Source: a virus. From it: DNA of 38,035 nt. Both the position numbers and the translations under genes were made by a program. The notes under the pieces were generated by a model. That model was not told where the DNA came from, searched no databases, and saw only the letters and a list, made by a program, of their open reading frames with translations. Position 1 is the first letter of the stretch; every line of letters begins with the position of its first letter. The stretch spans positions 1 through 38,035 of IMG/VR virus record IMGVR_UViG_3300022752_000182, one strand, 5' to 3'. Below are positions 3 to 28,584 of the stretch, piece after piece.

Positions 3-1310
3 CCAGAAGGGGGATGGAAAGAAGACTCTGATACCTGGCGTGTTGATACCGTCTATCTGGGTAACGATGCTCGTGATTCATCTGAAAAAGACCCGACTAT
101 CCAGGCACTCGGTATGGGGGGTCAAATTTATGGTGCCCGTGCTGATTTAATTATTCTTGATGACTGTATAACCACAGCCAATGCTCACGAACACGAGAAG
201 CAGATTAACTGGCTACAGAAAGAAGTTATTACCCGTTTGGGTAAGAATGGAAAGTTGCTGGTAGTAGGGACCCGAATTGCGCCGAATGACTTTTATAAAG
301 AACTCCGCGACCCGAAGCATTGGTCAAGCGGCAAAAGCCCATTTACGTATATGGGTATGCCTGCTGTTTTACAGTATGCTGATAAGCCGAAAGACTGGAC
401 TACGCTCTGGCCTAAATCGGATGTTGCCTGGGATGGCGATGCGGACACCCCAGATGAGGAGGGACTATATCCTAAGTGGGATGGTCCGACCCTTGCACGG
501 CGCAGAGGCGAAGTTACTCCGTCTACGTGGGCTCTTGTATATCAGCAAGAAGATGTAACTGAAGATTCTATATTCCCACCTGAATTAGTTCAGGGTTCTT
601 TAAATGGAATGCGTAAGCGAGGTCCGCTAAGACCTGGCGCTGCAGGACACCCTGCTCAAGTTGAAGGCTATACCGTAGTTGGGTTTGACCCTGCTATGGG
701 TGCTGGTCGTGCTGCTTTTGTGGCTATGACTTATAACAGGATGGACGGAAAGATTTATGTGTTGGACTGCTTAGATATGGCAGAACCAACTCCACAGAAG
801 ATTAGGCAAGCAATTGAAGAGTTTGTTCAGAAGTATAAACCGCAAGAACTCCGCGTTGAAATCAACGCCCATCAAAAAGCCTACGCCCTTGACTCAGACT
901 TACAACAATGGCTGGCATCTTATGGTGTTCGCCTCAATGCTCACTTCACTGGAAAAAACAAATGGGACACAAACTTTGGTGTCGCATCTATGTCCACACT
1001 TTTCGGAACGACAAGCAATGGCAAGCATCAAAAGAACAACACCATTGAACTCCCTAGCACTGAAGGTTCTGAAGGACTTAAGGCTTTAACACAACAGTTA
1101 ATTACTTGGAAGCCTGATACCAGAGGTAAGACTGACTGCGTTATGGCGTTGTGGTTTGGCGTTATTAGATGCCGTGAGTTTATGCAACAGAATTCTGTGG
1201 TGCAAAGGTATGCCCATAATCGTTGGGCTACAAGAGCGCAAGCACAGAAACGTTATAGTGTTAATTTAGATGAGATGATTGCTGAGCAATGGCAGCAGAC
1301 ATACGGATAG
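3..1310 (+). CDS. terL: Terminase large subunit (5' truncated)
   Basis: The reading frame is open to the left window edge (first full codon at base 3), so the gene begins outside and about 435 residues are visible. A Walker B-like segment LIILDD lies near residues 49-54 of the visible part and is preceded by GGQIYGARAD, the usual context in terminases. The C-terminal half has an RNase H-like nuclease pattern: GFDPA (first acidic residue), LRVEINAHQ (second) and KTDCVMALWF (third). The Walker A motif is missing because it lies upstream of the window. The enzyme drives ATP-dependent DNA packaging into the prohead and cuts the concatemer. It sits directly before the portal region, as expected. 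The 5' truncation is a window effect, not a mutation. The assignment is confident from motif order and context. Confidence 0.93.
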   Translation, partial: PEGGWKEDSDTWRVDTVYLGNDARDSSEKDPTIQALGMGGQIYGARADLIILDDCITTANAHEHEKQINWLQKEVITRLGKNGKLLVVGTRIAPNDFYKELRDPKHWSSGKSPFTYMGMPAVLQYADKPKDWTTLWPKSDVAWDGDADTPDEEGLYPKWDGPTLARRRGEVTPSTWALVYQQEDVTEDSIFPPELVQGSLNGMRKRGPLRPGAAGHPAQVEGYTVVGFDPAMGAGRAAFVAMTYNRMDGKIYVLDCLDMAEPTPQKIRQAIEEFVQKYKPQELRVEINAHQKAYALDSDLQQWLASYGVRLNAHFTGKNKWDTNFGVASMSTLFGTTSNGKHQKNNTIELPSTEGSEGLKALTQQLITWKPDTRGKTDCVMALWFGVIRCREFMQQNSVVQRYAHNRWATRAQAQKRYSVNLDEMIAEQWQQTYG

Positions 1311-1316
1311 GAATTG

Positions 1317-2348
1317 ATGGCTAAGCCACCGCTTAATAAGGATGTTAAAGAAGTCATAAAAGAGATTTCTAAAGCGCCTTTTGGAAAAGCATCTAAGCCT
1401 GATAAGTCTAGGCCGATGTTGACTATTGCTGAAACTTTAGAAGCAAAAGAAGCACAAACAAAGACTGCACCAGTTACTATTAAAAAACCAGCAGCCGAAC
1501 TTACTGCTAAAGAAAAAGATAAAGCAATTAAACAAATTGCTAAAGAACGCGGTATAAGTTATAACCAGGCTAAAGAAGCATTACGTAAAGAACTTGCAAC
1601 TGCTCCTAAAGCAACACCTGTAAAACAACCTACAGTTACTTTGCCAAAGGGTATTCCTTTTCGTTCAGAGATAGAAGATGTTGCCCCGCGTGCTGTAACG
1701 TATAAAGGTAAAGTTGTTTATTTAACTCCTGGTCAGATTAAAGCAATGGGGTTAACGGCTGATTATCCTGAGTCAACTTTTGTTGGTGGAGAAATAAAAC
1801 CTAAAACACAATATGAAAGAATTACTGGAATTAGCCCGCTTAGCAGACAAATAAAAGATGTTGAGTCTGTTAAAGAAGAAGCAAGATTACGGGCCGAAGC
1901 ATTAAATGATTGGAATAATCAAGCCCGAGCCGCTGCTACAAATCCAGAAGTTAGAAGCCCAGCAGAAGCGTTAGGTAAAGCAACCCCAGATTCTGCTAAG
2001 GCAGAGTCTTATGCTGAAAGACTTTTTCAAAAGGCTTATAAAGAATTATCGCCTAAAGAGCGCAAAGATATAAAAATAATTATAGAAGAAGAAAATAGGC
2101 GAGCACAAAAAGTAACTCGTTCTGTTGTAGGTGCTCAGATGGATGAACAAAAAGTAGTTCGTCCAGGAGTAAAAAAATATCGTTATAGTGCTAAGCCAGG
2201 GGCTGTTCCAAGAATCCCTTTGCCACCATCACAACTAGGTGGACTTAACGCTTTAGGGTTTATAGGTATGGCAGCAAGTGCATTTTTTAGTTATATGTTA
2301 ATGGCACAACAAGAACAACAAAGACTACAAGAAGAAGCGATGAATTAA
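1317..2348 (+). CDS. Unknown Lys/Ala-rich protein with C-terminal membrane segment
   Basis: I do not recognise a family. The protein is about 343 residues, strongly charged and Lys/Ala/Glu-rich through most of its length. A helical segment near residues 60-85 (KQIAKERGISYNQAKEAL) could be a small helix-turn-helix. Near the C-terminus (about 311-331) there is one hydrophobic stretch, LNALGFIGMAASAFFSYMLM, followed by a Gln/Glu-rich tail, so a tail-anchored or membrane-interacting virion protein is possible. The start is taken as ATG 1317, because AGGA at 1309-1312 is well spaced for it; an in-frame TTG at 1314 is too close. It begins 6 bases after the terminase stop and precedes the portal, so a packaging or head-vertex role is plausible but unproven. 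Confidence 0.8.
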   Translation: MAKPPLNKDVKEVIKEISKAPFGKASKPDKSRPMLTIAETLEAKEAQTKTAPVTIKKPAAELTAKEKDKAIKQIAKERGISYNQAKEALRKELATAPKATPVKQPTVTLPKGIPFRSEIEDVAPRAVTYKGKVVYLTPGQIKAMGLTADYPESTFVGGEIKPKTQYERITGISPLSRQIKDVESVKEEARLRAEALNDWNNQARAAATNPEVRSPAEALGKATPDSAKAESYAERLFQKAYKELSPKERKDIKIIIEEENRRAQKVTRSVVGAQMDEQKVVRPGVKKYRYSAKPGAVPRIPLPPSQLGGLNALGFIGMAASAFFSYMLMAQQEQQRLQEEAMN

Positions 2349-2350
2349 GG

Positions 2351-4111
2351 ATGGCAATGTTATCAATAGAACAAATCTCAGCCCGTGTTGAGAACTTACG
2401 TCAACGTGCTGCAGAGCGCGATTCGCGCCAACAAGATGTTCTTGCTGTCCGTAAAGGACAGATTGCAACTGTATATCCAGATTTCTTTCCTGAAGGTGTA
2501 GATGCAAATGTCGTTGCAAATTTTATTGATATTGTTGCGAGAGACCTTTCCGAGGTTATGGCGCCATTACCGTCAGTTAACTGTTCGGCGGCGAATCAGG
2601 CTAATGACCGCGCTCGTAAGTTTGCTGACACCCGCACTCGTATTGCTACTAATTATTTTGCTCACTCGGACTTACAAGTCCAAATGTATACAGGAGCCGA
2701 TGTATACATAACATTTGGTTTCGTTCCTTTCATAGTTGAATTGGACGAAGAAGCAGGGCTGCCGCGTATCCGTATAGAAAACCCAGTGGGCGCTTACCCA
2801 GAGTTTGACCGCTATGGACGCTGCATTGCCTTTGCAAAGCGTTACTATATGCCTGTTGGAGAAGTTGCTTCACAGTTCCCTGAGTACGCAAATATCTTAC
2901 TTGGCAAAGAAATGTACAAGTCTGATATGACAGCACAGATTGAAATTGTTCGCTATTACGATAGCGAGCAGTCTGTGTTATATGTTCCTGAGCGCAATAA
3001 CCTATTGCTATCTCACGCCAAGAACCCTATTGGCAAGATGATGGTTGTTGTTGCTAAGAGACCATCTATTGATGATGAGATGCGTGGTCAGTTTGATGAC
3101 GTGCTCGGTATTCAGTTGCTTCGCAATAGGTTCGCATTACTTGCGATGGAAGCAGCGGAGAAGTCCGTGCAAGCACCAATTGTTCTGCCTTCAGATGTCA
3201 ATGAACTTGAAATGGGTGGCGATGCTGTTATCCGCACCGCTAACCCTGCTGGTGTTCGCCGTGTTGATTTAAATATTCCACCTGGAGCATTTACTGAACA
3301 GGCTTTACTACAGCAAGAACTAAGAACAGGAACACGTTATCCAGAGGGACGTACTGGAAACATTGATGCCAGCATCATCACGGGACAAGGTGTGCAGGCA
3401 CTTATGGGAGGCTTTGACACACAAGTCAAGTCTGCTCAGGCTATTTTTGCTTCAGCGCTACGCGATGTTATTTCCGTATGCTTTGAAGTTGATGAAAGAT
3501 TCTTTGATTATGAAAAGACTATCCGTGGTGTAGATGCTGGTAGCCCATACCAGATTACCTACAAACCTAGCAAGGATATTAAGAAAGACTACTCAGCCGA
3601 TGTCCGTTATGGAATGTTGGCAGGTCTTAACCCAGCACAGGGTCTTATCTTTATGCTACAAGCATTAGGTGGCGGTTTGATTTCAACAGACCTTGCTATG
3701 CGTGAATTACCATTTGGTATTAACGTAACTCAAGAGCAAGAAAAAATTGAAATTGAAAATATGCGTAAGTCGTTAGTTCAATCTTTGCAAGCCTATACTC
3801 AGGCTATCCCACAGATGGCTATGCAAGGCGGCGACCCATCAATGATAATTAAGAAAATTGCTGATGTTATTAAATCACGCCAGAAAGGCGTGACCATTGA
3901 AGATGCAGTAGAGGAAGTTTTTGCACCCGAAGAATTACCTCCTGCTGGTCCTGCCGAACTAATGGTTGAGCAAACGTCCCCTGCTCCCGCTGGCGCTCCA
4001 GTAGGAGGCGCTTCTCCTGAAGGCGCCCCGCCATCACTACAAACATTATTGTCTAACTTAACGTTAGGCGGAAAAGCAAGCGCTAGCGCAAGAACTTCTA
4101 CTCGGAGGTAA
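2351..4111 (+). CDS. Portal protein
   Basis: Portal proteins form the dodecameric ring at the packaging vertex through which DNA enters and leaves. This ~586-residue protein follows the terminase and has the usual composition: a helical N-terminus, a central alpha/beta region (YITFGFVPFIVELD, IENPVGAYPEFD, then an aromatic-rich stretch), and a helical region with GTRYPEGRTGNIDASIITGQ, resembling the portal wing/stem transition. The last ~50 residues are Pro/Ala/Gly-rich and probably flexible. ATG 2351 directly follows the upstream stop; a second ATG at 2357 has better spacing from AAGGA (2347-2351) and may be the true start. The gene ends in the ribosome-binding site of the next gene. Assignment rests on size, order and fold-like patterns rather than an invariant motif. 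Confidence 0.82.
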   Translation: MAMLSIEQISARVENLRQRAAERDSRQQDVLAVRKGQIATVYPDFFPEGVDANVVANFIDIVARDLSEVMAPLPSVNCSAANQANDRARKFADTRTRIATNYFAHSDLQVQMYTGADVYITFGFVPFIVELDEEAGLPRIRIENPVGAYPEFDRYGRCIAFAKRYYMPVGEVASQFPEYANILLGKEMYKSDMTAQIEIVRYYDSEQSVLYVPERNNLLLSHAKNPIGKMMVVVAKRPSIDDEMRGQFDDVLGIQLLRNRFALLAMEAAEKSVQAPIVLPSDVNELEMGGDAVIRTANPAGVRRVDLNIPPGAFTEQALLQQELRTGTRYPEGRTGNIDASIITGQGVQALMGGFDTQVKSAQAIFASALRDVISVCFEVDERFFDYEKTIRGVDAGSPYQITYKPSKDIKKDYSADVRYGMLAGLNPAQGLIFMLQALGGGLISTDLAMRELPFGINVTQEQEKIEIENMRKSLVQSLQAYTQAIPQMAMQGGDPSMIIKKIADVIKSRQKGVTIEDAVEEVFAPEELPPAGPAELMVEQTSPAPAGAPVGGASPEGAPPSLQTLLSNLTLGGKASASARTSTRR

Positions 4112-4113
4112 CT

Positions 4114-4365
4114 ATGGCACCGCGGAAAAAAAAACCACAGCGCACACGTAAACCGCGTACTGTAGCAAATGAAGAATACACAGAGTTAGAAATGTATTGC
4201 ATTTGGCTTAATGAATACTATAAGTCTTTACTTAAGGCAGGATTTAGTAGCGAGTTAGCGTTAAGTTTTGTAATGGAAAAATCTTCTTACCCAAGTTGGG
4301 TAGCGTATAAAGCGCCTAGCGAAGAAGAATTAAAAAAATATCTAGATGAAGAGGACGAAGACTAG
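4114..4365 (+). CDS. Small unknown protein, basic N-terminus and acidic C-terminus
   Basis: An 83-residue protein of unknown function. The first ~17 residues are almost wholly Lys/Arg/Pro (MAPRKKKPQRTRKPR) and the last ten are acidic (DEEDED end), with an aromatic helical middle (YCIWLNEYYKSLL). That charge asymmetry suggests a nucleic-acid or partner-binding virion component. A near-consensus ribosome-binding site, GGAGGT at 4104-4109, overlaps the portal stop codon and sets the ATG at 4114. The stop overlaps the next start by one base (TAGTG). It lies between the portal and the giant protein, so a structural role is likely. Confidence 0.82.
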   Translation: MAPRKKKPQRTRKPRTVANEEYTELEMYCIWLNEYYKSLLKAGFSSELALSFVMEKSSYPSWVAYKAPSEEELKKYLDEEDED

Positions 4366-4745
4366 TGGCAATTAGAGAAGAAGTTTCTGGCATTGGGTCT
4401 ATGTCTAAGCGAACAGATTTAAATGTTTCTAAGCAACCTGTTAGATATATTTCTGGTATGTCTAATATGGGCCAAACAACTGGACAAGAAGTTCTTGACC
4501 AGCAATCAGGTGCACCTATGGTTGCTGTAGAAACACCTGTTGCTTTGCCACCAATTGTAGATTTTACTGCACCAACCCAATTTAAAAATGAACCTATTTC
4601 ATCTGGTGCTAATTATGACCCTACTACACCAAGTTTATCGTCAGTCATCCCACAACCTGTATCAGCCTTAACCACCATAGAAAAGGCTTTGCAGTATGAC
4701 ACTACAGGAGTATCCGAGTTTCTTTACAACAGAATGAATAGATAA
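4365..4745 (+). CDS. Small unknown virion-region protein
   Basis: A 126-residue protein beginning at GTG 4365, which shares one base with the stop of the gene before it, a sign of translational reinitiation. The sequence is low in charge after the first 25 residues and rich in Thr, Ser, Pro and Gln, with PVALPPIVDFTAP in the middle; it looks mostly extended or disordered. No known domain is recognised. It lies directly upstream of the giant gene and is separated from it by only 3 bases, so it may be a chaperone, a linker or a minor component of the same internal structure. This is inference from position alone. Confidence 0.75.
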   Translation: MAIREEVSGIGSMSKRTDLNVSKQPVRYISGMSNMGQTTGQEVLDQQSGAPMVAVETPVALPPIVDFTAPTQFKNEPISSGANYDPTTPSLSSVIPQPVSALTTIEKALQYDTTGVSEFLYNRMNR

Positions 4746-4748
4746 CCT

Positions 4749-7700
4749 ATGTCAAACCAAGGTTTTATTCCAGTATCTATTGATTTAGATACTTTAGAAA
4801 CTACGCCAGAAATGATTCAAGTTAGAAACGCTGGCGCGTTTACACCTGAAGAGTCTGCCCGTTGGAATGGTATGGCTAGGTTAACAAACCTTAATACCTT
4901 TTTAATGACCGACCCTGATATAAACAATGCAAGAAATACTTTTAATGCTTTAGACCCTACAATACAAAAGGCTTTAATTGATTTTAATCCAGAGGCTGAG
5001 TATGCCAAACTTGATGAAAAAGGGTTTTTAAATAAGTTTAAAAAGAGTTTTATGGAAACAGGGATAGTAAGGTTATTTAGAGAACCTTTGCCTACCCTTG
5101 TATCAGCAGGCCAAGCCTATGTAAGAACTGTAGAAAATACCGCTCTTAACGCTTTAGAGTTTAGCAAAAAAACTAGAGAAGCAGGTTTAAGTCTTTTTGG
5201 CGGACCAGAGGCAGTTGAGAAAGCAACTAATCCTGACTATTGGAGCGAAGGTTGGAATGCTTACAATAAATGGAATGAAATAGAAACAGATAAATTAGAT
5301 AACTTTTATAACAGAGCAACTGGTGTATTTGTAAGAGGTATTCTTGACGGAAAAAATCAACTAGAAATTTTTCGGGAATATGGTGCTATTGATGAAGATA
5401 TGGTTAACATATATTCTAAATTTGGAACACCAGAGTTTGATGAAATTGCAAATCGCTACTCTCGCCATAAAATAAATCTTGGAAGTAAGATTGTTGATTG
5501 GGCAGGAAGATTTGCTCCGTTAAAAGAAAAACCAACTGCAACCGATACTTTACGTGAGGCTATTGCTCTTTCTGTTTTAAGTATTGGCGGTATGCGAAAT
5601 GTAGCAAGAAATAAATATGGCGAGTTTGTTTCAGAAAAATTATTTAAACCTGATGAGTATGGAGACCCAGGTGTTGGTTTAGATATAGTTGCTCTTGGCG
5701 TAGTAGACCCTTTAACTTATGTTACTTTTGGTGGGTCAAGAGGTATGGCCCTTACTGCGTCTGCTAAATCAGCAGCAGAATTACAAAATGCAGCAAATGC
5801 TGGAGCATTAATAAGAAGCGTAGAACAATTATTTACCGACCCTGCATTTGCTACTAAAAATAATAATTTTATTAATGACCTTAATGTTTATAGAGATGCT
5901 TTAAATAAAAAAGATTTAACTACTGCTGGGGCTGCAAGGGTTAAAATATCACTAGACCATCCTGAATATGATGACGATGCTTGGTTGGGTTTGCTTGTAA
6001 AAAGCACTGTTATTAAGGGCGACAAAGAAGTTCCTATTACAGATATGGATACTTTTTTTGAGTTTTTTAAATCAGGTCAATACGTTAACTCATTAGTAAA
6101 TGGAACCGTAAACAACATTATTACTGCCCGTGAAGGCGTGGTTGCTTTACAGAAACGTCAAAATTTATTTGTTAATAACTTAAGAAAATATAGCGCTAAA
6201 ATATTTCAAGGTTTAGATACTGGTGTAGTAATAGGTGCCAAGCCTATGCCTAATGAAATTGTAGATACTTGGGTTGATTTTGAAAAAACAATCTTGGCAA
6301 GACCTGTTTTAGATGTTGCTGGCGCCCCCGAAGAAATGCTAGATGTAATTGTTAAAAATGAAACTTTACTTAAAAGCCTTACAAGACCAAAAGAATATGG
6401 CATTAAAAATGTTAGAAGATTATTTGGCGAGTTGCTTACAACAATGCCTGCTTCTCGTGGTCAGATTTTTTGGTCAGATGCCCTTGTTGATAAAGGTTTA
6501 GATAACTTAAGAAAATATGCACGTCTTATTACGGGAGATAGATTACGTGCAGAATTTATAACTCAATTATTTAAATCTTCAACCAGGAACGAACGAATTA
6601 ACATAATGTATAATTTGGATAAATTATACTTACAGGAAATAGCAGGTGCTAGCGCTACAAACAAAGGCGTTGAACTTGTAGAAAGTATTTTAAACTCTAG
6701 ATATGTTGGTTCTGAACTAGCAAGCGTTGCTAATTATTTAGAAGACGTTCCAGATATATTTAAAAATCTTGACGAGATAGATACTTTACCACCAGGGCCA
6801 AGTGCATTTATGCATTTAACGGATGGTATTACACTGTTTGATTTTGATGACATACTGCAAAAAGTTTATGGCAGTATGGGCAATCCAGGAACAAGAGCGG
6901 TAAGTTCTACTCAATTTAAATATGGTCCCACAACATACAAAAACATATTTAAAAAACTTGGATATTTATGGTGGACTGGTTCTACAAATAACGAAATATC
7001 CAGAATGATAAATCGTGGTTTAGTATTTCTTTATCTTTTTCCTAAACTGGGTGTTAAAACTGCAGTTGATGAGGCTACTGTTTTAGCCAATGTGTCTAGT
7101 CCAGATTTGCTGGTTAATGGTATTGCTGGCAAAGGCCGCGCTTTAAGCAATATTAATATTGCTATTAAAGGCGATACTAGTTTTCAAGGCCCAGTAAAAT
7201 CAATATTGCTTGATTTATTTGGAAAAAATCCTGCTAAGTTTGCAGAGGCTGCACAGCGCAAGGAATTAACTTCTATGAAAATGGTAGAAATTCCTTTAAG
7301 AGACCCAGATACTGGCAAAGAAATAATTCAAAAAGAACTTTTAACTGCTGAAGAGTTTTTTGGTAAGCCACCAGAGGAAATTTTAGTAGACGCAGCCGTT
7401 GCTAAATATGGAAAACCATTATCTCCAGAAGAAAAACAATGGTTTACTGAACATTTTGTGTTAGAGAGTGACACAGTTAGTGATGCAATGATTGGTTCAG
7501 TTGTAGGTTCTACCTATGGCGATTCATTGGCACCAGCAACAAGGCTTGCTAAAGATATTTATGGCAAAAGTCCACTTACTGAAGCATTTGATTCTTTAGG
7601 ATTAAAGGTTTTATCCAAGCCATATTTAATTAAAGCAAATCAATTAGACGAATTTCAAAGACAGTTTGCTCAATACAGTTATTTTTACAAATTGTTTGCT

Positions 7701-10364
7701 AAAAATGATAAATACAATGTAGAGCCTACTCGTATATTTATGAATAATAATGCTTTGAAAACTGAAAAAGATGTTGAAGAGTTTGTAAAAGATATGATGG
7801 GTTGGTTTGGTTGGATAGAACAACCTACTGCCAAGAGTATTGCTAAAGCAATAAAGATAAATGATGAGTTTGGGCAAGTTCAACAACTTCGTGCTGCTGG
7901 AAAAACAGAAGAAGAGATAAGTAAGATAATTATTAAAAATATGGCTATTGAAATGCGCTATGTTTTTCACGGAGGTTCAGGTTACAACCAAGCATTGGTT
8001 GATTTGCTACGCAAAAAAGCCTCAGAAACTGTAGATAAGATTTTTAAAGCGCAAGAAATTTCTGATTATAAGATGTTGAAGCGTGAACGTGCAGGTGTTC
8101 AAGAGGTAGTCACTGATGCCGAATTAGCAAGAAGACAGAAATATTATCGTGAAGCAACTGCTTGGAGAACAATAGTTGGAAAATTAAATTGGGAAGAATT
8201 TGAAGAAGCAACTAAAGGTTTTGTAATCAAAGGTGCAATTAAAACAGATGTTGCTTTTCCAGAAGTATTAAAAGTTGCTAAAGAAGCAGGCGATATTAAG
8301 TCTGTTGCTACAAATGCTATTGCTACAGGGTTTAGATTAATGGACCGCACCAGCAATGACTTGACACGTTCTGATGTATACTTTTTAAAAATACTTGAAG
8401 AAAGAGGAAAGTTAAAAGCAAATCAAGAACTATATACTGACTATCTTGTTTCTCAAGGCGTTGATAGAGAAAATGCTTTAGTGCAGTCTGCTGCTGTAAT
8501 GGCTAATCAGGCAAGACATAATGCAGCAAACGATATGTTGAAGTATGTAGATAATCCTACATTGCGTTCTCAATTAGCATTTAATATGCGAATAGTTGGT
8601 CGTTTTATTCGCGCTACTGAAGATTTTGGTAAAAGAACTTTGCGTTGGATGTTGAAACATCCGACATCTATTCCTTATAGAATAGGTCATATAAGCCACG
8701 CTACCGATGGTTCAGGTATTACATACACAGACGATGATAACAATACCTATGTAGTAATTCCTAATGATGGTGTTTTTTGGCAAGATATAGCACCAGCAAT
8801 AGTAATGCTTGGAACACCTCAAGGATTATATACTTTAGGAAAAATAGGTGTAGGCGGTTTACAAGGTCAATCTATTAAAGATAGTCCGTATTGGGGTTTC
8901 TTTAAACAAGTTGAATGGAATCAGTATACATTAAAATTGTCTATTTTAAACCCATCTCTTATGGAGGCTTCTGGTGTTTATACACTACTAGGTCCTAACA
9001 TAGGACTGCCTGTTATTGGTATTAGAGATTTTCTAGTAGGTAGATTAGCCCAAAGTTTACAAAGCCCAGAACTTGCTCAGTTTGGTTTGTCAATAGATAA
9101 TATTTTATTAGGTGAAATTTCAGACGACACTACAATTTGGCGTTCAACAATTCCGCCTGCTGTAAATAATTTTATGAAATCCCTTGACGGAGAATATAAA
9201 GATAATCAAGGTGCAATTGCTGCTTATCAGGCTATTGCTTATATGCAATATATTAATCCTAAAAAAGCAGAAGACTTTTTAAATGACACTGGAGATGTAG
9301 ACCCAGCCAAAGCACAACAGTTTTTAAATGAATGGCGAATTCAAGTGGCTAATGTGCTGGCACAGAAGGCTGGATTTAATACAATATATGGTGCGCCTTT
9401 AGCGCTAGGTACTCCTGGTATTTCTAAATATTTAAGAGATAACGGAACTGTTACTTTTACAAAAGAATATGGCGACATACTTAGGGCTGTATTAGATTAC
9501 AACCAAGAGAATGGTTTCTTTATTAAAGACCCATATGCAACAGCAGTTTCTTTACACGCTCTTGAAAGACCTGGCAAATTAATATTTCAGGTTCCTAAAA
9601 ACCTTAGAGAAACAGGTATAGCAATAAACTATACAATGGAAACTTATCTTTGGGGTGTTAAGAATAGAAAGTTTATAGAACAATATCCTAATGCTAGTTG
9701 GATATTTGCTCCTAATGTTGGCGAGTATGACCCTAGGGTAATTGCTTATATGGAAGCAGCAGATATGATTCCAGAGGGCAAGAATGCATTTGATGATAAT
9801 AATGCAGCATTAAGGTCTTATATTGAAAGAACTACTGTTGCTAAACAGTTGTATGAGTATTATCAGTATGATAAAGAAGTTGAAAGATTACTTAATGACC
9901 CTAATAATCCCCGCAGAAATTTTGTAGACTATCGTACTGAAATAATGCGGAAGGCTGATGTAGAAAAAGAAGCCTTAAAATTAAGCAACCCTTTATTAAA
10001 ACACGTATTAGAAACACAACAAGTTATAACTACAGAAACATTAAGAACTAATTTTAATGAGTTAAAAACAATTGTTAATCAAAATCTTTTTCCAAAAGAA
10101 GTAGGTTTAGATACTAGAGATTTATTAAAAATTATGGTTCGTTCTGCATCTGAGTTACTTGTTGTTACGGAAAACAATGCAGTGGCTAGACAGTATTTGG
10201 GAGATACAGAATTACGTCAACAGGTAGAAACTATGTATTCTCAATATCAAGATATTGCTAGGCAGAATCCTATTTTGGGCGAAGCCTGGACAGCAATTAT
10301 TAAACCAATGCTAGATAAAACATACGATTACCCACTTCAAGTAGTCAGAAAGCCTGGTGATTAA
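4749..10364 (+). CDS. Giant (1871 aa) probable internal virion / DNA-ejection protein
   Basis: The largest gene of the window, an uninterrupted 5.6 kb frame. No catalytic motif is recognised; in particular I see no clear transglycosylase ES...GIPQ pattern or RNA polymerase DxDGD pattern. It is mainly helical and charged, with amphipathic or hydrophobic stretches at about residues 310-335 (LDIVALGVVDPLTYVTFGG), 757-775 (RGLVFLYLFPKLGVKTAV) and 1345-1370 (IAPAIVMLGTPQGLYTLGK). Short-tailed phages carry large internal proteins (T7 gp15 and gp16, P22 gp16, for example) that leave the head and form a channel in the host envelope. Size, amphipathic segments and position between portal and scaffold fit such a role, but this is inference. 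No strong ribosome-binding site precedes ATG 4749. The codons are very AT-rich compared with the capsid gene. The stop overlaps the next start (TAATG). Confidence 0.85.
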   Translation: MSNQGFIPVSIDLDTLETTPEMIQVRNAGAFTPEESARWNGMARLTNLNTFLMTDPDINNARNTFNALDPTIQKALIDFNPEAEYAKLDEKGFLNKFKKSFMETGIVRLFREPLPTLVSAGQAYVRTVENTALNALEFSKKTREAGLSLFGGPEAVEKATNPDYWSEGWNAYNKWNEIETDKLDNFYNRATGVFVRGILDGKNQLEIFREYGAIDEDMVNIYSKFGTPEFDEIANRYSRHKINLGSKIVDWAGRFAPLKEKPTATDTLREAIALSVLSIGGMRNVARNKYGEFVSEKLFKPDEYGDPGVGLDIVALGVVDPLTYVTFGGSRGMALTASAKSAAELQNAANAGALIRSVEQLFTDPAFATKNNNFINDLNVYRDALNKKDLTTAGAARVKISLDHPEYDDDAWLGLLVKSTVIKGDKEVPITDMDTFFEFFKSGQYVNSLVNGTVNNIITAREGVVALQKRQNLFVNNLRKYSAKIFQGLDTGVVIGAKPMPNEIVDTWVDFEKTILARPVLDVAGAPEEMLDVIVKNETLLKSLTRPKEYGIKNVRRLFGELLTTMPASRGQIFWSDALVDKGLDNLRKYARLITGDRLRAEFITQLFKSSTRNERINIMYNLDKLYLQEIAGASATNKGVELVESILNSRYVGSELASVANYLEDVPDIFKNLDEIDTLPPGPSAFMHLTDGITLFDFDDILQKVYGSMGNPGTRAVSSTQFKYGPTTYKNIFKKLGYLWWTGSTNNEISRMINRGLVFLYLFPKLGVKTAVDEATVLANVSSPDLLVNGIAGKGRALSNINIAIKGDTSFQGPVKSILLDLFGKNPAKFAEAAQRKELTSMKMVEIPLRDPDTGKEIIQKELLTAEEFFGKPPEEILVDAAVAKYGKPLSPEEKQWFTEHFVLESDTVSDAMIGSVVGSTYGDSLAPATRLAKDIYGKSPLTEAFDSLGLKVLSKPYLIKANQLDEFQRQFAQYSYFYKLFAKNDKYNVEPTRIFMNNNALKTEKDVEEFVKDMMGWFGWIEQPTAKSIAKAIKINDEFGQVQQLRAAGKTEEEISKIIIKNMAIEMRYVFHGGSGYNQALVDLLRKKASETVDKIFKAQEISDYKMLKRERAGVQEVVTDAELARRQKYYREATAWRTIVGKLNWEEFEEATKGFVIKGAIKTDVAFPEVLKVAKEAGDIKSVATNAIATGFRLMDRTSNDLTRSDVYFLKILEERGKLKANQELYTDYLVSQGVDRENALVQSAAVMANQARHNAANDMLKYVDNPTLRSQLAFNMRIVGRFIRATEDFGKRTLRWMLKHPTSIPYRIGHISHATDGSGITYTDDDNNTYVVIPNDGVFWQDIAPAIVMLGTPQGLYTLGKIGVGGLQGQSIKDSPYWGFFKQVEWNQYTLKLSILNPSLMEASGVYTLLGPNIGLPVIGIRDFLVGRLAQSLQSPELAQFGLSIDNILLGEISDDTTIWRSTIPPAVNNFMKSLDGEYKDNQGAIAAYQAIAYMQYINPKKAEDFLNDTGDVDPAKAQQFLNEWRIQVANVLAQKAGFNTIYGAPLALGTPGISKYLRDNGTVTFTKEYGDILRAVLDYNQENGFFIKDPYATAVSLHALERPGKLIFQVPKNLRETGIAINYTMETYLWGVKNRKFIEQYPNASWIFAPNVGEYDPRVIAYMEAADMIPEGKNAFDDNNAALRSYIERTTVAKQLYEYYQYDKEVERLLNDPNNPRRNFVDYRTEIMRKADVEKEALKLSNPLLKHVLETQQVITTETLRTNFNELKTIVNQNLFPKEVGLDTRDLLKIMVRSASELLVVTENNAVARQYLGDTELRQQVETMYSQYQDIARQNPILGEAWTAIIKPMLDKTYDYPLQVVRKPGD

Positions 10365-11857
10365 TGCCTCCAAAACCCGTAACTAAGGGTGGTCCTAGAC
10401 CAGACATAAAAGACTATCAAGGTCTATCCAATGGTCAGGCCCTATTTGAAGCAGATGTTGCAAAATGGCAAAAATTAAATGTTGGTTCGCCTTCGGCATC
10501 TTCTCCTGCTACTGCAGTAGGTGGTGCTGTAATTCCAGTAGATTCTTTAGAGTCTGATACTGTAGTTAAATCTGGCTCAACAAGAACTGACTGGGAATCT
10601 TTTACTGATGGTTCTTTTAATCTTCAAGAGGGTGATGCTAAAGTAGGCGGAACGCCTTATGTCACTGGCAAGATAGAAAAATATGGCGAAACTCCTACAC
10701 CTATAGTTATTTTACCATCTTCTGATGGCAGAGGATTTGTTGTAGTACCCCGTGAAGAGTTATTACAGCAAATCGTAACTAGTATTAAAAAAGACCCCAA
10801 TAATATTACTTATTGGAAACAACAATTACAGAATTACTATCGTTCCCAAGATGCATTTACAACATCTCTTCGCGGTGGTCCAGTAACTGATAAAGATACA
10901 GAGTTTGTTTATGCTTTACGTAGAGCGCTCAGCGAAATAGGAGCGGATAACTTTTCTACTGGCGTTAGTAATGTTAAAGCAAATGTATTAAATACTAGTG
11001 GTTTTTATGATGTTAATAGTTGGATTCAAAGTAGGCTTGTTGTCCCAGGTAAAACATCTACTAGCATAAGCGAAAGTGCTTTTACTAAAAAAGCAGACGC
11101 TATTGCTGAGTTTATGCGTGAAGTTCAGATACAGGTTGGTGACCCTAAACTTGTAGATAATGTAGATGCACTTGCTGAGCAATATTGGTTGAAAGTAAAA
11201 ACAGAAGAAGAAAAGCGCAAGAGCACTAGGGTTACTATAACCGACCCTATTACTGGTAATACTGTTTCTACAGGCACTGGTTATCAAATGCCTTCTGCTA
11301 CTTTACTTAAAGAATGGCGTATTCAGTTTATTACCAAAGGCGCTATTGAAAAAGATAAAATTATTTCTACTGGTATTAGAAATGTAAAGCCTATAGATTT
11401 GCAGGATGCTGGCGGAGAGATAGGCGATAACTATACAAAGTTAAAAGGTTATGCCTTTGAATATGGCGTAAGACTAAGTGATGAAGACCTTAAAAAGAAA
11501 GCAGCAGAAGCAACGTTGCCTGGTGGTTCTATAGAAGAACAGCAAAGAAGTATTCAATTAGCATCACGGGCTTTGTATAAACCCTTAGCCCCATACATTG
11601 AGGGTGGTTTGAAGGTTAAGGATATTGCTAGTCAGTTTATGAAAGCAAAAACTAATGAACTAGAACTATCTGAGGGCGAAGTAGATATCTTTGACCCAGA
11701 TGTTCAGGCTGCTATTTCAGGAGATAAATTGCCAGGAAGTCTTGATTATTTAATGCAGGTTAGGTCAGACCCTAGATACCGCTTTACAAAGAAAGCCAAT
11801 GAAGGTGCTGCTGGATTCTTAGATACTCTTCTTAGAATGTGGGGGAAGGTCGGTTAA
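10364..11857 (+). CDS. Unknown probable internal virion protein (497 aa)
   Basis: The gene starts at the TAATG overlap with the giant gene, so the two are probably translated together. The N-terminal ~70 residues are Pro/Gly/Ser/Ala-rich and likely flexible (MPPKPVTKGGPRPDIKDYQG). The middle holds charged helices and two short beta-rich parts, one with VTITDPITGNTVSTGTGY near residue 290. The C-terminus, LDYLMQVRSDPRYRFTKKAN followed by a Gly/Ala helix and MWGKVG, recalls the C-terminal tails of probable virion-internal proteins in other short-tailed actinophages. This is recall of style, not a verified match. No enzyme motif was seen. A capsid-internal or tail-vertex role is inferred from its place between the giant protein and the scaffold. 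Confidence 0.8.
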   Translation: MPPKPVTKGGPRPDIKDYQGLSNGQALFEADVAKWQKLNVGSPSASSPATAVGGAVIPVDSLESDTVVKSGSTRTDWESFTDGSFNLQEGDAKVGGTPYVTGKIEKYGETPTPIVILPSSDGRGFVVVPREELLQQIVTSIKKDPNNITYWKQQLQNYYRSQDAFTTSLRGGPVTDKDTEFVYALRRALSEIGADNFSTGVSNVKANVLNTSGFYDVNSWIQSRLVVPGKTSTSISESAFTKKADAIAEFMREVQIQVGDPKLVDNVDALAEQYWLKVKTEEEKRKSTRVTITDPITGNTVSTGTGYQMPSATLLKEWRIQFITKGAIEKDKIISTGIRNVKPIDLQDAGGEIGDNYTKLKGYAFEYGVRLSDEDLKKKAAEATLPGGSIEEQQRSIQLASRALYKPLAPYIEGGLKVKDIASQFMKAKTNELELSEGEVDIFDPDVQAAISGDKLPGSLDYLMQVRSDPRYRFTKKANEGAAGFLDTLLRMWGKVG

Positions 11858-13398
11858 TGCCTAGATACTTAGAAGATGACGATTATTTTAGAGCAGATGC
11901 TGCATATGATGCAAGGACTGGTGTATCAAGAGCACCTGCTGGTAGAACAGATTCTGCTGCTTCTGTAGATGAACGTACTAGATTACAAAAAATTGGTATT
12001 CCAGATGTTGACCCATTAGCAGCCTTACAGAAAAGTATTGCTGAATCTAAAATAGTTGACCCATATACTAAACGAGGTCCAGTAAGTGGGCTTAGTCCTG
12101 CACAAATAGAGGCTAATAAGATTGTTTCAGAAACTGCTAAAGCAGTTGGAGCAAAAATTATTCCTGGCACAAAAGGTGAAGGTGCAACATCAGATAGAAT
12201 TGATGTTACAACTGTTAAAACAACAGACCCAAATGTTAGTGGTTTTCCTAAAGCAGGAACTCTTCTTCGCTATCGTGCTAGCAGAACTGGGTTTAGGATT
12301 CCTATTTATGCTGATGGTAAGGGCGGAGAATATGAAGGCCCTGAACAAGCAGACCCTGATTATGACCCCAATAAAAAGGGCGATGGCCCTCAGTTTGTTG
12401 AGTATGAATACAGTAAAGACTTTAAAAAGCGCCGTGCTAAGTATTTTAATTCTGCTACTGGAACGTTTACATATGGTGAATGGGAAGATGCACCACTTAC
12501 AAAAGAAGATTTTGATGCACAACAAGCAAAAATTCTTGCAGAAGAACAAGCCCTTAATCAAAAGCGGGATGCTTTTGCACTTATTGAAGCCACTATGCGT
12601 TCATATGGATTTAGTGAAGATGAGTTAAAAGAATTAAATACCTATATTCAGGCTGGATTATTAAATCCTAAACTAGGTCCTGAGCAATTGGTATTGCAAT
12701 TAAGACAATTGCCTGTATATAAAGCACGCTTTGCTGGTAATGAAGAGCGTAGGGCTAGAGGTTTAAATGCCCTTTCAGAGGCTAATTACTTGCTACAAGA
12801 AAGCGCTTATGCAGAAACATTAAGGCAGTATGGGCTACAAAGGTTTGTTAATCGTACTCAATTTGCTACTTTTATTGGTAATGATATATCTAATACAGAA
12901 GTAGGCAGACGTGTTAAGACTGCTGTAGAAAGATTACAGATGGGTGACCCAGCCATATTGAGGCAGTTGCGTAGTTACTATGCAATTACAGACTCTGACA
13001 TAGTTTCTTATTTCTTGAATCCTAAAGAAGTATTACCTGAACTAGAGTCAAAGGTTACTACTGCAGAAATTGGTGCTACTGCTGGTCAGTATGGATTAGA
13101 TACTGGCTTAGCCAGAGCATCTGATTTGGAACGCTATGGCGTTGATTTAGAAAGAGCACGCCGTGGTTATAGCAATATTGCCCAAGTATTACCACGTACT
13201 ACTACTTTGAGTGATATTTATAAACAAGCAGGAATTGATTATACTCAAACAACTGCAGAAGAAGAAGAGTTTAAAGGATTAGCATCTGCTAAAAGAGCAA
13301 GAGAAAGACTTGCAGGACTTGAGACTGCTGCTTTTAGTGGCGCTAGTGGCGCCACAAGAGGCGTATCTTTGTCTAAACAATTAGGCGGAACATACTAG
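11857..13398 (+). CDS. Unknown probable internal virion protein (513 aa)
   Basis: The start is ATG 11857, which overlaps the preceding stop by one base and has a purine-rich GGGGGAAGG at 11841-11849 at good distance; a longer frame from GTG 11839 would give six extra residues and is less likely. The first ~150 residues are polar and acidic. A coiled-coil-like helix (about 225-260) follows. Then comes a segment PVYKARFAGNEERRARGLN with LSEANYLLQESAYAETLRQY, an arrangement I associate with internal or tape-like virion proteins of actinophages. The C-terminus is helical with a Gly/Ser tail. With the two genes before it, this forms a likely set of ejected proteins. The function is not shown by any catalytic motif. 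Confidence 0.8.
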   Translation: MPRYLEDDDYFRADAAYDARTGVSRAPAGRTDSAASVDERTRLQKIGIPDVDPLAALQKSIAESKIVDPYTKRGPVSGLSPAQIEANKIVSETAKAVGAKIIPGTKGEGATSDRIDVTTVKTTDPNVSGFPKAGTLLRYRASRTGFRIPIYADGKGGEYEGPEQADPDYDPNKKGDGPQFVEYEYSKDFKKRRAKYFNSATGTFTYGEWEDAPLTKEDFDAQQAKILAEEQALNQKRDAFALIEATMRSYGFSEDELKELNTYIQAGLLNPKLGPEQLVLQLRQLPVYKARFAGNEERRARGLNALSEANYLLQESAYAETLRQYGLQRFVNRTQFATFIGNDISNTEVGRRVKTAVERLQMGDPAILRQLRSYYAITDSDIVSYFLNPKEVLPELESKVTTAEIGATAGQYGLDTGLARASDLERYGVDLERARRGYSNIAQVLPRTTTLSDIYKQAGIDYTQTTAEEEEFKGLASAKRARERLAGLETAAFSGASGATRGVSLSKQLGGTY

Positions 13399-13403
13399 AT
13401 TCC

Positions 13404-13491
13404 CGACACGGACCGACCAGCCCCGTGCGGTGTATAAGACTGGTAGCAAGAGCCAGCCTATCTACCCCTGGATAGAACTGTGGCTTGCGAC
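13404..13491 (+). ncRNA. Structured RNA / leader with predicted pseudoknot upstream of scaffold and capsid genes
   Basis: The 120-base gap before the scaffold gene is the largest in the head region and folds well by eye. Stem 1 is CACGG 13407-13411 with CCGTG 13423-13427. Its loop contains ACCAG (13416-13420), complementary to CTGGT at 13440-13444, which would form an H-type pseudoknot. Stem 2 is GCAA(GA)GCCA 13446-13455 with TGGCTTGC 13481-13488, enclosing an inner hairpin CTATC 13458-13462 / GATAG 13471-13475. The ribosome-binding site GAAAGGG of the scaffold gene (13504-13510) lies just downstream. It could be a cis-regulatory leader, a processing site or a mobile RNA element. All pairings are seen in the sequence; the function is inferred. 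Confidence 0.5.
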
Positions 13492-13518
13492 TAACAACGA
13501 ATAGAAAGGGTGGTTGCT

Positions 13519-13989
13519 ATGAGCAACAACTACTGGGATGACGAAGAAGACGAAGTAGAAGTACCTGACCATCAGTTAGATGGCGATGCCTTGGTTAAAA
13601 AACTAAGGAAAGCCAAGCGTGCTGATGAGAAGCGTATCAAGGAACTTACCGAACAACTTGACGGATTCGTCAAGCAGAAGCGGGAACAAACCGTCTCTGA
13701 AGTCCTAGCAAAAAAGGGAGTAAACGCTAAGGCTGCACGCCTTATTTTGAAAGATGTAGAGGATGCCACAGAGGAATCTATTGATTCTTGGCTCCGTGAT
13801 AACGGAGATTTAATTGGCTATACCCCACAGGCTCAGAATGAGAATACGCAGAAAGACCTTGCTACATTACGTCAGCAAGATGTTCTAACCCAAGGCGGTA
13901 TGACTCCAGACAAAGCCGTAGATATGGCATCTCGTTTAGATAACGTAGATTCAATGGATGAATTAATCCACCTACTACGCAACTCCTAA
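13519..13989 (+). CDS. Probable capsid scaffolding protein
   Basis: A 156-residue acidic protein placed directly before the major capsid gene, the usual site of scaffold genes. The N-terminus is very acidic (YWDDEEDEVEVPD). Residues ~22-60 form a charged coiled coil (LRKAKRADEKRIKELTEQLD), followed by helices and a C-terminal helix ending MDELIHLLRNS. Scaffolding proteins organise capsid subunits into a prohead and then leave or are degraded. The start is ATG 13519, with GAAAGGG at 13504-13510; an in-frame GTG at 13510 lies inside that site and is rejected. Codon use shifts here from the AT-rich style of the preceding genes towards the more C/G-ending codons of the capsid gene. Confidence 0.78.
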   Translation: MSNNYWDDEEDEVEVPDHQLDGDALVKKLRKAKRADEKRIKELTEQLDGFVKQKREQTVSEVLAKKGVNAKAARLILKDVEDATEESIDSWLRDNGDLIGYTPQAQNENTQKDLATLRQQDVLTQGGMTPDKAVDMASRLDNVDSMDELIHLLRNS

Positions 13990-13998
13990 TAGTTCATA

Positions 13999-14014
13999 GT
14001 CACTTGGAGGTGAC
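13999..14014 (+). promoter_or_regulatory. Hairpin over the capsid-gene ribosome-binding site
   Basis: GTCAC (13999-14003) can pair with GTGAC (14010-14014) around a 6-base loop. The strong ribosome-binding site GGAGGTGA (14006-14013) lies partly in the loop and partly in the right arm, 9 bases before ATG 14023. Such a small hairpin could tune or present the site for very high translation of the capsid gene. It is short, so chance is possible. Confidence 0.35.
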
Positions 14015-14022
14015 GAAACCTA

Positions 14023-15228
14023 ATGGCAAACCTATATACATCTACCGCGAGCACATCTCTCGGTGGAACAGTTGGCGCCGCAGGTCTAGTACAGAAGGCG
14101 TATGACCGCCTTCTAGAATTCGCTCTCCGCTCAGAACCACTACTTCGTTCTGTCGCAGATAAGCGTCCTGCCCGTCAAGCAATCCCAGGTTCAACTGTAG
14201 TGCTACAGCGCTATGTTGATTTGGATGCAGCAACTTCAACACTAACAGAGACAACTGACCCAGATGCAGTTGCTCTAACAACTCCGACATCAGTAACCAT
14301 TACTCTTAACGAGTATGGTAATGCTGTCCTAGTAACCCGCGCTCTTGAGTTATTCTCACTAGCAGACGTAGACCCAGCAATTGCAAACATCATTGCATAC
14401 AACCTTGCTGATTCTATTGACCAGGTTGTTTCAACAACACTAACTGGCGGAACTAACGTAATCTACAGCGGAAGCACCGCTACAAGCACTGCAACAATTT
14501 CTGCTGCAGCAACAATTGATTCAGCAGACATCCGTAAGGCTGTTGCTAAACTCCGTGCTAATAAGGCCAAGGCTCGCCGTGGTTCTTACTACTGGTGCGG
14601 AATCCACCCAGAAGTTTCCCACGACCTGCGTGCAGAGTCTGGAAACCTAGGCTGGAACTTTGCTCACATTAACTCTGACCCAGCCGTTAATAACGTATGG
14701 GCAGGAGAAATTGGCGACTACGAAGGAGCATTCTTTGTTGAGTCTTCTCGTTTGCCAAATGCTAAAGATGGTGCAGACCAGTCTGCTCTCGCTACAACCG
14801 CAGTAACCGTTGCAGGTACATCAGCAGGCTTCACTTTCGGTGTTGCTTCTTCTGCTGTTATCGCAACTCGTGCTGAGGTAGGCGACAAGGTTGCTGGAAC
14901 TGGTATCGCTTCAGGTGCCAAGATTACTGCAATCAGCACATCTGGCTCAACCACTACATTCACTGTAAATACAGCCAACACTGCTGCAGTTACCGCAACA
15001 ACAGTTGTAACCGTAACTCCAGTAACCCGTGTATTTGATACTCTTCTCTGCGGACAGCAAGCACTTGCTGAGGCTGTTGCAGAAGAGCCACACATTGTTA
15101 TCGGAAACGTAACCGATAAGTTGATGCGCTTCCGCCCAATGGGCTGGTACGGCGTACTCGGCTTTGCACGTTATCGTGAAGAAGCACTGTATCGTATTGA
15201 ATCTGGTTCTTCAATCGCTGCTCTCTAG
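14023..15228 (+). CDS. Major capsid protein (HK97 fold, N4-gp56-like)
   Basis: A 401-residue protein after the scaffold with a consensus ribosome-binding site. The sequence resembles the N4-gp56 family of major capsid proteins: an N-terminal helix AYDRLLEFALRSEPLLR, a beta-rich E-loop-like region, a helix DSIDQVVSTTLTGG, then HPEVSHDLR and GEIGDYEGAFFVESSRLP, and a C-terminus ending in GFARYREEALYRIESGSS. Between about residues 258 and 330 there is a Thr/Ala/Val/Ser-rich, beta-looking segment (VTVAGTSAGFTFG ... VTATTVVTVTP) that could be an inserted surface domain. Codons are more C-ending and regular than in neighbouring genes, as expected for the most highly made protein. The family name is from memory of the pattern; the capsid role is strongly supported by context. 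Confidence 0.87.
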   Translation: MANLYTSTASTSLGGTVGAAGLVQKAYDRLLEFALRSEPLLRSVADKRPARQAIPGSTVVLQRYVDLDAATSTLTETTDPDAVALTTPTSVTITLNEYGNAVLVTRALELFSLADVDPAIANIIAYNLADSIDQVVSTTLTGGTNVIYSGSTATSTATISAAATIDSADIRKAVAKLRANKAKARRGSYYWCGIHPEVSHDLRAESGNLGWNFAHINSDPAVNNVWAGEIGDYEGAFFVESSRLPNAKDGADQSALATTAVTVAGTSAGFTFGVASSAVIATRAEVGDKVAGTGIASGAKITAISTSGSTTTFTVNTANTAAVTATTVVTVTPVTRVFDTLLCGQQALAEAVAEEPHIVIGNVTDKLMRFRPMGWYGVLGFARYREEALYRIESGSSIAAL

Positions 15229-22555: not shown

Positions 22556-23287
22556 ATGATACAAAAACAAGAGACAGTGGCTATCGGTTGGTGCGACAAT
22601 GGGACTACCGATGGTAAGTTTACTGAAGGGTTAATGACAGCAGTAATTGCTGGTCCTAACAACGGTATGCGCTTTACTACCAGCATACGTGTGCAGGGTA
22701 ATCAGATAGGCAGACAACGCCAGATACTCTTTGATTACTGGGCAGATAAACTTAAGACAGACTGGATACTATGGGTAGATTCAGACATAGTTCTAAGCCT
22801 TGAGGCTATCCATAAACTCTGGCAGACAGCCGATAAGGTAAATCGTCCAGTAGTTAGCGGTGTCTACTTTATTTCTAAGGAAAATGAGGGCAGTCTTATG
22901 CGCCCGTTTCCAGTTCTGTTTGATGATGTAAGTGAGTTTGAAGTCCGCTATCACCACCCATTACCAGATAATCAGGTAATCAGGTGTGACTCAGCAGGCT
23001 TTGGATTTGTGCTTATGCATAAGTCTATAGTTCCTAAGATGAGGGCTGCCTATCCTGGTCAGTCTATGTTTATGGAACGCGGTGATGCCGAAGACAATAA
23101 GTTTATCGGCGAAGATATTATCTTTTTCCGCCGTATGAAGAAGGCTGGCATACCACTGCACGCCCATACTGGAGCACTGGTAAAGCATATGAAACGCTTT
23201 AGCGTTGACTATGACTACTATGCATTGTATTGGGCTAATGAACATTTAAAGACAAAACTTAAAGAGCAAGAAAATGCAGCAGAGTAA
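22556..23287 (+). CDS. GT-A-type glycosyltransferase-like protein
   Basis: A 243-residue protein with the layout of a GT-A fold glycosyltransferase. An early GNQIGRQRQILFDYW segment comes before DWILWVDSDIVLS (residues 69-81), which contains the DxD-type DSD expected to hold a metal ion and the nucleotide sugar. A later GEDIIFFRRMKKAGIPLHAH supplies the usual acidic and His residues of the acceptor side. GAGGGG at 22547-22552 precedes the ATG. It lies among tail genes and overlaps the methyltransferase, so the two may modify a virion or host surface glycan. The substrate cannot be told from sequence. Confidence 0.78.
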   Translation: MIQKQETVAIGWCDNGTTDGKFTEGLMTAVIAGPNNGMRFTTSIRVQGNQIGRQRQILFDYWADKLKTDWILWVDSDIVLSLEAIHKLWQTADKVNRPVVSGVYFISKENEGSLMRPFPVLFDDVSEFEVRYHHPLPDNQVIRCDSAGFGFVLMHKSIVPKMRAAYPGQSMFMERGDAEDNKFIGEDIIFFRRMKKAGIPLHAHTGALVKHMKRFSVDYDYYALYWANEHLKTKLKEQENAAE

Positions 23288-27715: not shown

Positions 27716-27947
27716 TGCCGTAGTCCTCTCCTGATGGGGTGGGCAGAGTTAACATACTGCCACAACTAGCGCACTCCCCGTCTGTAAAGTAAAACGCTAA
27801 CTCTGAATCTACAAATCCACCTAACATAATAAAGACATCACATCCACAAGCGCATACTTCTGTTGGCTCACCACGCAAGTCCATTGCCTTGCTGTAGTCC
27901 TTGATATGGAACAGGTCTCTAATGTGTTTCGGTTGGCTCATCTTCAT
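27702..27947 (-). CDS. Small zinc-binding protein (CxCxC...CxxC)
   Basis: An 81-residue protein with VCACGCDVF near residue 31 and ECASCGSM near residue 58, two Cys knuckles likely to hold one zinc ion around a beta hairpin (ELAFYFTDGE). An alternative ATG lies two codons downstream (27941). It overlaps the sigma-like gene by 29 bases and precedes the FmdB-type ribbon. A nucleic-acid or RNA-polymerase contact is a reasonable guess given its neighbours; no specific family is named. Confidence 0.78.
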   Translation of the reverse strand: MKMSQPKHIRDLFHIKDYSKAMDLRGEPTEVCACGCDVFIMLGGFVDSELAFYFTDGECASCGSMLTLPTPSGEDYGIATL

Positions 27948-28584
27948 CTTCTTCTATTACTGGGCCGTCTTCATCTGGGAATGGGCGCCAACCGCCTAGG
28001 TTTCTGATTAATGAATTGACTGCACGCTGGACTTTCATCCGTGCACCATCTGGTGTTGTTTTTAAATCTTTAGCAATCAGACTCCACTCGTTGTTATCTG
28101 TGCTGAATCTGATTCGTAGAACATTTTGTTTAGCCTCTGATAGTTTGTAGAAGGCTGATGCTATGTCTGAGCGGAGCACTAGCCAGTTGTTGCCGTCATT
28201 GCTTGGCTCTGTCTTATTGAACTTGAAGTTTAAATCTTTTATCTTGACTGGCATCTCATATGTTTCAGAGATAATGCTGGGCAGGAATGCTTCTATAACT
28301 GTGGCATCATAGTAATACAGGTCTAGTATCTCGTAGCCAACTGTCTTTGCTTTTTCTTTTTCGCAGTATGTTATTGCAGCATTACGTAGGGATTTGGCTA
28401 TTAACTTATCTTTATCTTTCCGTTCTAATGCAGACCATTCAGCATACTTACGGGGATGGGTCAGGAACCATAGCCACAGCACTTGCTGTATATCTAGGGC
28501 TTCTAGCATCGGATACCGCCTATGGTATTCCACTGCTAGTGACGCTACTAAAGCGTCATATTCCGCTATGTACTCCTGTGCCAT
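27919..28584 (-). CDS. Sigma-70-like factor (region 2 / region 4 layout)
   Basis: A 221-residue protein with a helical N-terminus (IAEYDALVASLAVEYHRRYP, then LDIQQVLWLWFLTHP and DKLIAKSLRNAAITYCEKEK) that recalls sigma region 2. The C-terminal part, LSEAKQNVLRIRFSTDNNEW followed by LIAKDLKTTPDGARMKVQRA and VNSLIRNLGG, has the helix-turn-helix spacing of sigma region 4. The last 18 residues are acidic. It could redirect host RNA polymerase to phage late promoters. An alternative is a terminase-small-like or other helix-turn-helix regulator. It overlaps both neighbours by about 29 bases. Confidence 0.65.
   Translation of the reverse strand: MAQEYIAEYDALVASLAVEYHRRYPMLEALDIQQVLWLWFLTHPRKYAEWSALERKDKDKLIAKSLRNAAITYCEKEKAKTVGYEILDLYYYDATVIEAFLPSIISETYEMPVKIKDLNFKFNKTEPSNDGNNWLVLRSDIASAFYKLSEAKQNVLRIRFSTDNNEWSLIAKDLKTTPDGARMKVQRAVNSLIRNLGGWRPFPDEDGPVIEEDEDEPTETH

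Follow-up and report, generated by a model that had tools for sequence, protein, structure and literature searches.

What lies in the one long gap of the structural gene cluster of this virus, and does it act on the gene that follows? The DNA analysed here (the window) is IMG/VR record IMGVR_UViG_3300022752_000182, a virus record of 38,035 bases. Between the upstream stop codon (13396-13398) and a start ATG (13519-13521) lies a gap of 120 nt. It is the sole long gap across 114-15228 of the window, so that the claim of a preliminary description, made from the sequence alone, that this was the only large gap of the head cluster held. The two genes downstream are as follows.

13519..13989, + strand: scaffold protein gene (the open reading frame is listed from GTG 13510; ATG 13519 is the likelier start)
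14023..15228, + strand: major capsid protein gene, N4-gp56 family (TIGR04387, 105 bits against a cut-off of 60; PHROG 1357)

The scaffold gene matched PHROG 7813 (5e-28) and, weakly and just under the cut-off, the Pfam scaffold family DUF4355, and its homologue in Streptomyces phages Dennebes and JPandJE is annotated as scaffolding protein. The start at ATG 13519 was backed by the spacing to the Shine-Dalgarno (SD) sequence and by conservation of the start. The N-terminus of the protein is acidic and not obviously RNA-binding. A separate strong SD, GGAGGTGA, serves the capsid gene. Elsewhere in the window, an open reading frame of 1871 aa in the structural cluster (4749-10364) had no PHROG match, 22556-23287 matched a glycosyltransferase family (PHROG 34859, 4e-103), and 27919-28584 on the - strand matched PHROG 354 (sigma-K factor, 6e-15), a family of phage sigma factors; some genes may thus depend on a promoter specificity that the phage itself encodes.

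Single-sequence folding of the leader gave no excess stability over chance, with an MFE of -32.2 against -31.7 +/- 3.7 for shuffles (z -0.13). Taken alone, the folding energy of the single sequence would have led to rejection of the element; the case for a leader RNA therefore rests on comparison. The parts of the leader are listed below.

13398..13493, + strand: structured RNA core (models R1 and R2), an H-type pseudoknot and, 3' of it, a long interrupted hairpin, from covariance model matches and pair counts
13403-13405/13428-13430 and 13407-13411/13423-13427, + strand: P1, stem 1 of the H-type pseudoknot
13416..13420, + strand: pseudoknot 5' strand ACCAG, in the P1 loop, covarying with 13440-13444
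13431..13439, + strand: pseudoknot loop 3, UGUAUAAGA, with G, UA and AG nearly invariant
13440..13444, + strand: pseudoknot 3' strand CUGGU, paired in 97.6% of cells in alignment A3 and 99.5% in A7 (four pairs)
13446-13450/13484-13488, + strand: P2 stem GCAAG/CUUGC, running on across the internal loop through CAG/CUG (13454-13456/13478-13480)
13451..13453 (AGC, 5') and 13481-13483 (UGG, 3'), + strand: 3x3 internal loop, nearly invariant by column counts
13458..13475 (13458-13464/13469-13475), + strand: P3 hairpin with a conserved C-rich apical loop CCCC (13465-13468) and double changes at 6/6 counted pairs
13503..13513, + strand: SD region AGAAAGGGUGG, to which the P3 apical loop is complementary (ACCC with GGGU)
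13513..13527, + strand: start-codon hairpin GUUGCU-AUG-AGCAAC, kept in the freshwater set

The start codon lies 75 nt 3' of the pseudoknot. The preliminary description had placed three stems, a nested hairpin and the ACCAG/CTGGT pairing at 13404-13491, and every one of these pairings was present in the sequence. The functional unit is larger than that interval: the modelled core spans 13398-13493, and the pairing of the apical loop with the SD and the start-codon hairpin, both of which that description had missed, push it to 13527.

The pairing was examined in alignments of relatives. In alignment A3 (62 distinct rows, one of which was a weak spurious match), 98.4% of pair cells were standard, against 24-43% in slid controls, and double changes were found at 21 of the 27 pairs. 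The P2 stem was 99.7% paired and its CAG/CUG continuation 100% paired in this alignment. P1 was 99.6% paired among freshwater relatives, with double changes at seven of its eight pairs, and at all eight in the wider set. With 99 distinct sequences from freshwater, soil and Streptomyces phages, 95.9% of pair cells remained standard (slid controls, 25-43%), and the covariation score was 0.834, compared with 0.192 +/- 0.008 for shuffled and 0.03-0.11 for slid alignments. Alignments A6 and A7 were made to a pseudoknot-free model of this structure, and consequently their nested-pair counts lean towards the model; the pseudoknot pairs, which lie outside that model, still paired in 99.5% of A7 cells.

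Every helix kept its pairing through double changes. P2 occurred among the relatives as GCAAG/CUUGC, GUAGG/CCUGC, GUGAG/CUCAC and GCACG/CGUGC, and the pseudoknot ACCAG/CTGGT switched to AUCGG/CCGAU and ACCGG/CCGGU, with at least eight type changes on the scaffold-protein tree. On the same tree, the two variable inner pseudoknot pairs changed seven and six times, both sides together. In one pair of loci (L037 and L080), the long hairpin was identical and the pseudoknot strands differed, being intact in each. Furthermore, G-U pairs outnumbered A-C mismatches by 157 to 26 on the scaffold-sense strand, indicating that selection acts on the transcript strand. The leader is thus a conserved, covarying RNA structure that includes a pseudoknot.

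Across the 99 sequences, unpaired positions were nearly fixed while helix positions varied freely. In loop 3, which holds the GUA..AGA motif of near-invariant unpaired bases, the column counts were G 83, U 82, A 86, A 94 and G 99. The internal loop was conserved as A 98, G 95 and C 97 on its 5' side and as (U/A)GG on the other (G 92, G 98), and the apical CCC of P3 was kept in 98-99 of the 99. Invariant unpaired bases beside varying helices are the usual mark of a recognition site. No binding data are available; this pattern probably reflects a binding site or tertiary contacts.

The distribution of the element was assessed by several searches. A 19-base piece of the hairpin matched exactly in 35 viral contigs. 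The capsid protein of the window brought in 80 loci, and wherever these reached far enough upstream, the same RNA preceded the scaffold gene. Covariance model R1, built from 16 window-like sequences, matched all 99 sources searched, two of them only partially where the contig ended inside the element; an extra weak match in L106 (E 0.44) was spurious. This model already found some soil-type leaders, with E down to 3.5e-7. The Beephvirinae capsid brought in 80 soil-type loci, and the leader layout was kept at scaffold identity down to ~30%. Beephvirinae leaders have the same architecture, with GCUGG/CCAGC as the pseudoknot and GCACG/CGUGC as P2. A second model, R2, built without the Beephvirinae isolates, detected these isolates at E ~0.0003-0.011 and matched 99 of 100 diverse loci. 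When viral contigs were scanned with a DNA pattern for the pseudoknot only, 49 stretches were obtained; all 48 new loci scored with R2 had the full element, and a capsid relative lay downstream in 30 of the 31 inspected, the remaining contig ending too early.

The carriers were viral contigs from freshwater, phage contigs from soil, cultured Streptomyces phages of the Beephvirinae and four Streptomyces contigs of phage-like character. Each relative with sufficient sequence had a single copy of the element, immediately 5' of the scaffold gene; Streptomyces phages Immanuel3, Manuel, FlowerPower and Abafar carry it unannotated in the records viewed. It was absent from four more distant records of phages with N4-type capsids (Bacillus Pagevirus, Bacteroides BS162P1 and two gut phages), and hence it is likely to be restricted to this actinophage lineage. 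A 396-genome sample of the phylum of an Actinomycetota MAG (G002) returned only the already known contig, giving no sign of a host-encoded version, though the filters were strict. For the window phage, the label actinophage is an inference from its cultured Streptomyces relatives and from contigs in Streptomyces and Actinomycetota assemblies.

The element always lay directly 5' of the scaffold start, with an upstream neighbour that varied from diverged structural genes to a tRNA array. In the Beephvirinae, the leader sits between the last tRNA of the array and the scaffold gene and begins within a few bases of the tRNA-Val 3' end; tRNA 3' processing would therefore leave the leader as the 5' end of the scaffold mRNA. 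These arrays (L113 2414-4362, L115-L118 and L200-L206) contain ~14-22 genes and end within a few bases of the leader. A degenerate tRNA was considered for the leader given the arrays just upstream and was rejected; ARAGORN found no tRNAs in the window or in eight freshwater-type relatives. In the record of Streptomyces phage JXY1 (L118 3112-3980), the major head protein is annotated as two pieces, perhaps owing to a sequencing frameshift.

The preliminary description had called for a comparison of homologous gaps, a covariation test and a search against Rfam, and had regarded a lack of covariation, or loss of the stems in relatives with a scaffold gene, as grounds for rejection. Neither occurred: the element was kept in relatives with an intact scaffold gene, and the stems, including the pseudoknot, showed compensatory changes. 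With Rfam 15, no match in the window reached the gathering threshold, and none was credible up to E = 10 for three divergent members, namely the window region, L138 and the Immanuel3 leader. The suggestion of a new structural RNA class was thus supported, as was, by the constant gene context, that of a leader of the scaffold/capsid operon. The suggested protein sensing (capsid or scaffold feedback) is still an inference, since no computed result identifies a binder, and a processing site is not excluded.

Next to the core, the ribosome site showed two further pairings. For 102 distinct combinations of apical loop and SD, the energy was -7.36 with the own partner and -6.64 +/- 0.12 with permuted partners (0/2000). 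This permutation test had no correction for relatedness, and some complementarity is expected without direct pairing because the loop resembles an anti-SD sequence. Covariation was also found outside the SD core, as CCUAG/CUAGG, CCCCAG/CUGGGAG, ACCC/GGGU and CUCCC/GGGAG; loop UAG and SD UAGGAG occurred together in 20 of 22 cases, and the loop had AG in 6/6 with CUGGGAG. Within the freshwater clade, the pairing can be just 3-4 bp (own 3.53, permuted 3.45 bp), and little covariation was seen there because both partners are nearly constant; in one locus of this clade (L289), both sides were switched, CUCCCC with GGGAG. The criterion for an SD-sequestering leader, that the SD covary with an upstream element to which it pairs, was therefore fulfilled, the evidence being weak in the freshwater clade alone. 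The start-codon hairpin was present in the clade of the window and several others, with a compensatory variant, GUUACU-AUG-AGUAAC, in a freshwater locus (L009). In several soil phages, the arms differ yet remain complementary (permutation, 0/5000). The hairpin is not universal: in the Beephvirinae isolates, and in other soil phages, it is weak or absent.

No U-tract terminator followed the hairpin, and none was called within 13398-13520. A transcription attenuator, for which a stem and U-run terminator in the leader would be needed, was accordingly rejected, and translation is favoured over attenuation. A sigma-70-like promoter in the leader was also considered and rejected.

A role in translation is well supported by this anatomy and appears likely, in the absence of expression data. 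On balance, we lean towards a cis-acting leader RNA that controls scaffold translation by occluding the ribosome site and probably senses a protein; regulation and sensing are both inferred, without experiment, transcript data or a binding partner. In this model, the apical loop would pair with the SD as a second, long-range pseudoknot. With this pairing formed and the start codon folded, ribosomes could not load, and with both pairings open the scaffold would be translated. The pseudoknot and the AGC/WGG internal loop would sense some factor. Free scaffold protein is our first guess for it because the scaffold gene is the one that always follows the leader directly, an SD of its own serves the capsid gene, and phage precedents exist; the identity of the sensor is the weakest step, and the acidic N-terminus of the scaffold speaks against the model. 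Unassembled scaffold would then shut off its own synthesis, while that of the capsid, with its own strong SD, would continue. A bolder reading, which we regard as slightly on the doubtful side, is that the leader represents an undescribed, widespread class of phage RNA sensors coupling head assembly to scaffold supply, in which a receptor made of the pseudoknot and internal loop would be read by free scaffold or capsid protein and would switch the SD-occluding pseudoknot and the start-codon hairpin.

The main rival to translational control is a role in mRNA processing or stability, in which a 5' pseudoknot shields the scaffold-capsid mRNA against 5' exonucleases or marks a cleavage site and so raises capsid mRNA. 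The element does lie at a gene boundary inside a long structural operon, it abuts the tRNA-Val 3' end in the Beephvirinae, and a processing site is likewise present in the mRNA of T4 gene 32, 71 nt 5' of the start (PMC3014915). However, this leaves the loop/SD covariation, the start-codon hairpin and the constant position just before the start codon unexplained, and we consider it unlikely. We also think it improbable that the leader is a constitutive set-point, giving low or delayed scaffold translation or a temperature-sensitive lock without a ligand; weak pairings do involve both the SD and the start codon, which would fit, but near-invariant pseudoknot loops and an AGC/WGG loop amid drifting helices are not accounted for. 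An H-type pseudoknot with SD occlusion is a common riboswitch layout, and invariant unpaired nucleotides in such a setting would also suit a small-molecule or ion riboswitch controlling scaffold translation. The element was, however, tied to a single structural gene pair, never preceded metabolic genes in the loci examined and had no Rfam riboswitch match, so this too has little support.

Two further alternatives can be nearly dismissed. Pistol ribozymes resemble the leader in having a P1-loop pseudoknot, a conserved internal loop among the later stems and an association with phages, and are often found near phage genes (PMC4604425). The P1 loop of pistol is paired to the linker between P2 and P3, which P2 encloses (PMC4604425), whereas the 3' pseudoknot strand of the leader precedes P2 and is not enclosed by a helix; the enclosing P2 helix and the GU cleavage junction of pistol are absent. 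A pistol-like self-cleaving ribozyme was thus rejected on topology, the P1 loop not pairing with a P2/P3 junction, and no pistol or other ribozyme match was found up to E = 10. An element acting at the level of DNA or in assembly, for example a packaging signal or procapsid RNA, would fit a place beside head genes in all relatives examined, but the excess of G-U over A-C on the sense strand argues for selection at the RNA level, and both the SD and the start codon form part of the structure.

Translational control by the leader thus remains the preferred reading, and the leader is likely to be a new family of translation-initiation leader RNA, its regulatory function being inferred; no description of the element was found in the open-licence literature searched. 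It was present in every relative examined of a large phage lineage, cultured Streptomyces phages included, and a covariation-backed structure makes an old question, the balance of phage scaffold and capsid, directly testable. The leaders of ribosomal protein S15 and the SAM-II and preQ1 riboswitches share pseudoknot-based control of SD access, but the element had no Rfam match to these types and occurred only in the context of a phage scaffold gene. The scaffold of phage P22 has the same gene function and autoregulates, unassembled scaffold lowering its own synthesis; the logic would be the same if our model is right. The closest functional precedent is T4 gene 32, where gp32 binds a pseudoknot upstream of its own ribosome site and is thought to act at translation (PMC3014915). 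Both are phage mRNAs in which an H-type pseudoknot precedes the ribosome site of the controlled gene, and the leader meets the criterion for an operator of this type, an H-type pseudoknot 5' of the SD in the leader of the controlled gene. The two are unrelated by sequence. Cooperative binding in gene 32 uses an A+U-rich stretch without structure, whereas the leader has a second hairpin, a conserved internal loop and an SD-complementary loop. If the sensor reading is true, this leader and T4 gene 32 would be independent cases of viral translational autoregulation by a pseudoknot.
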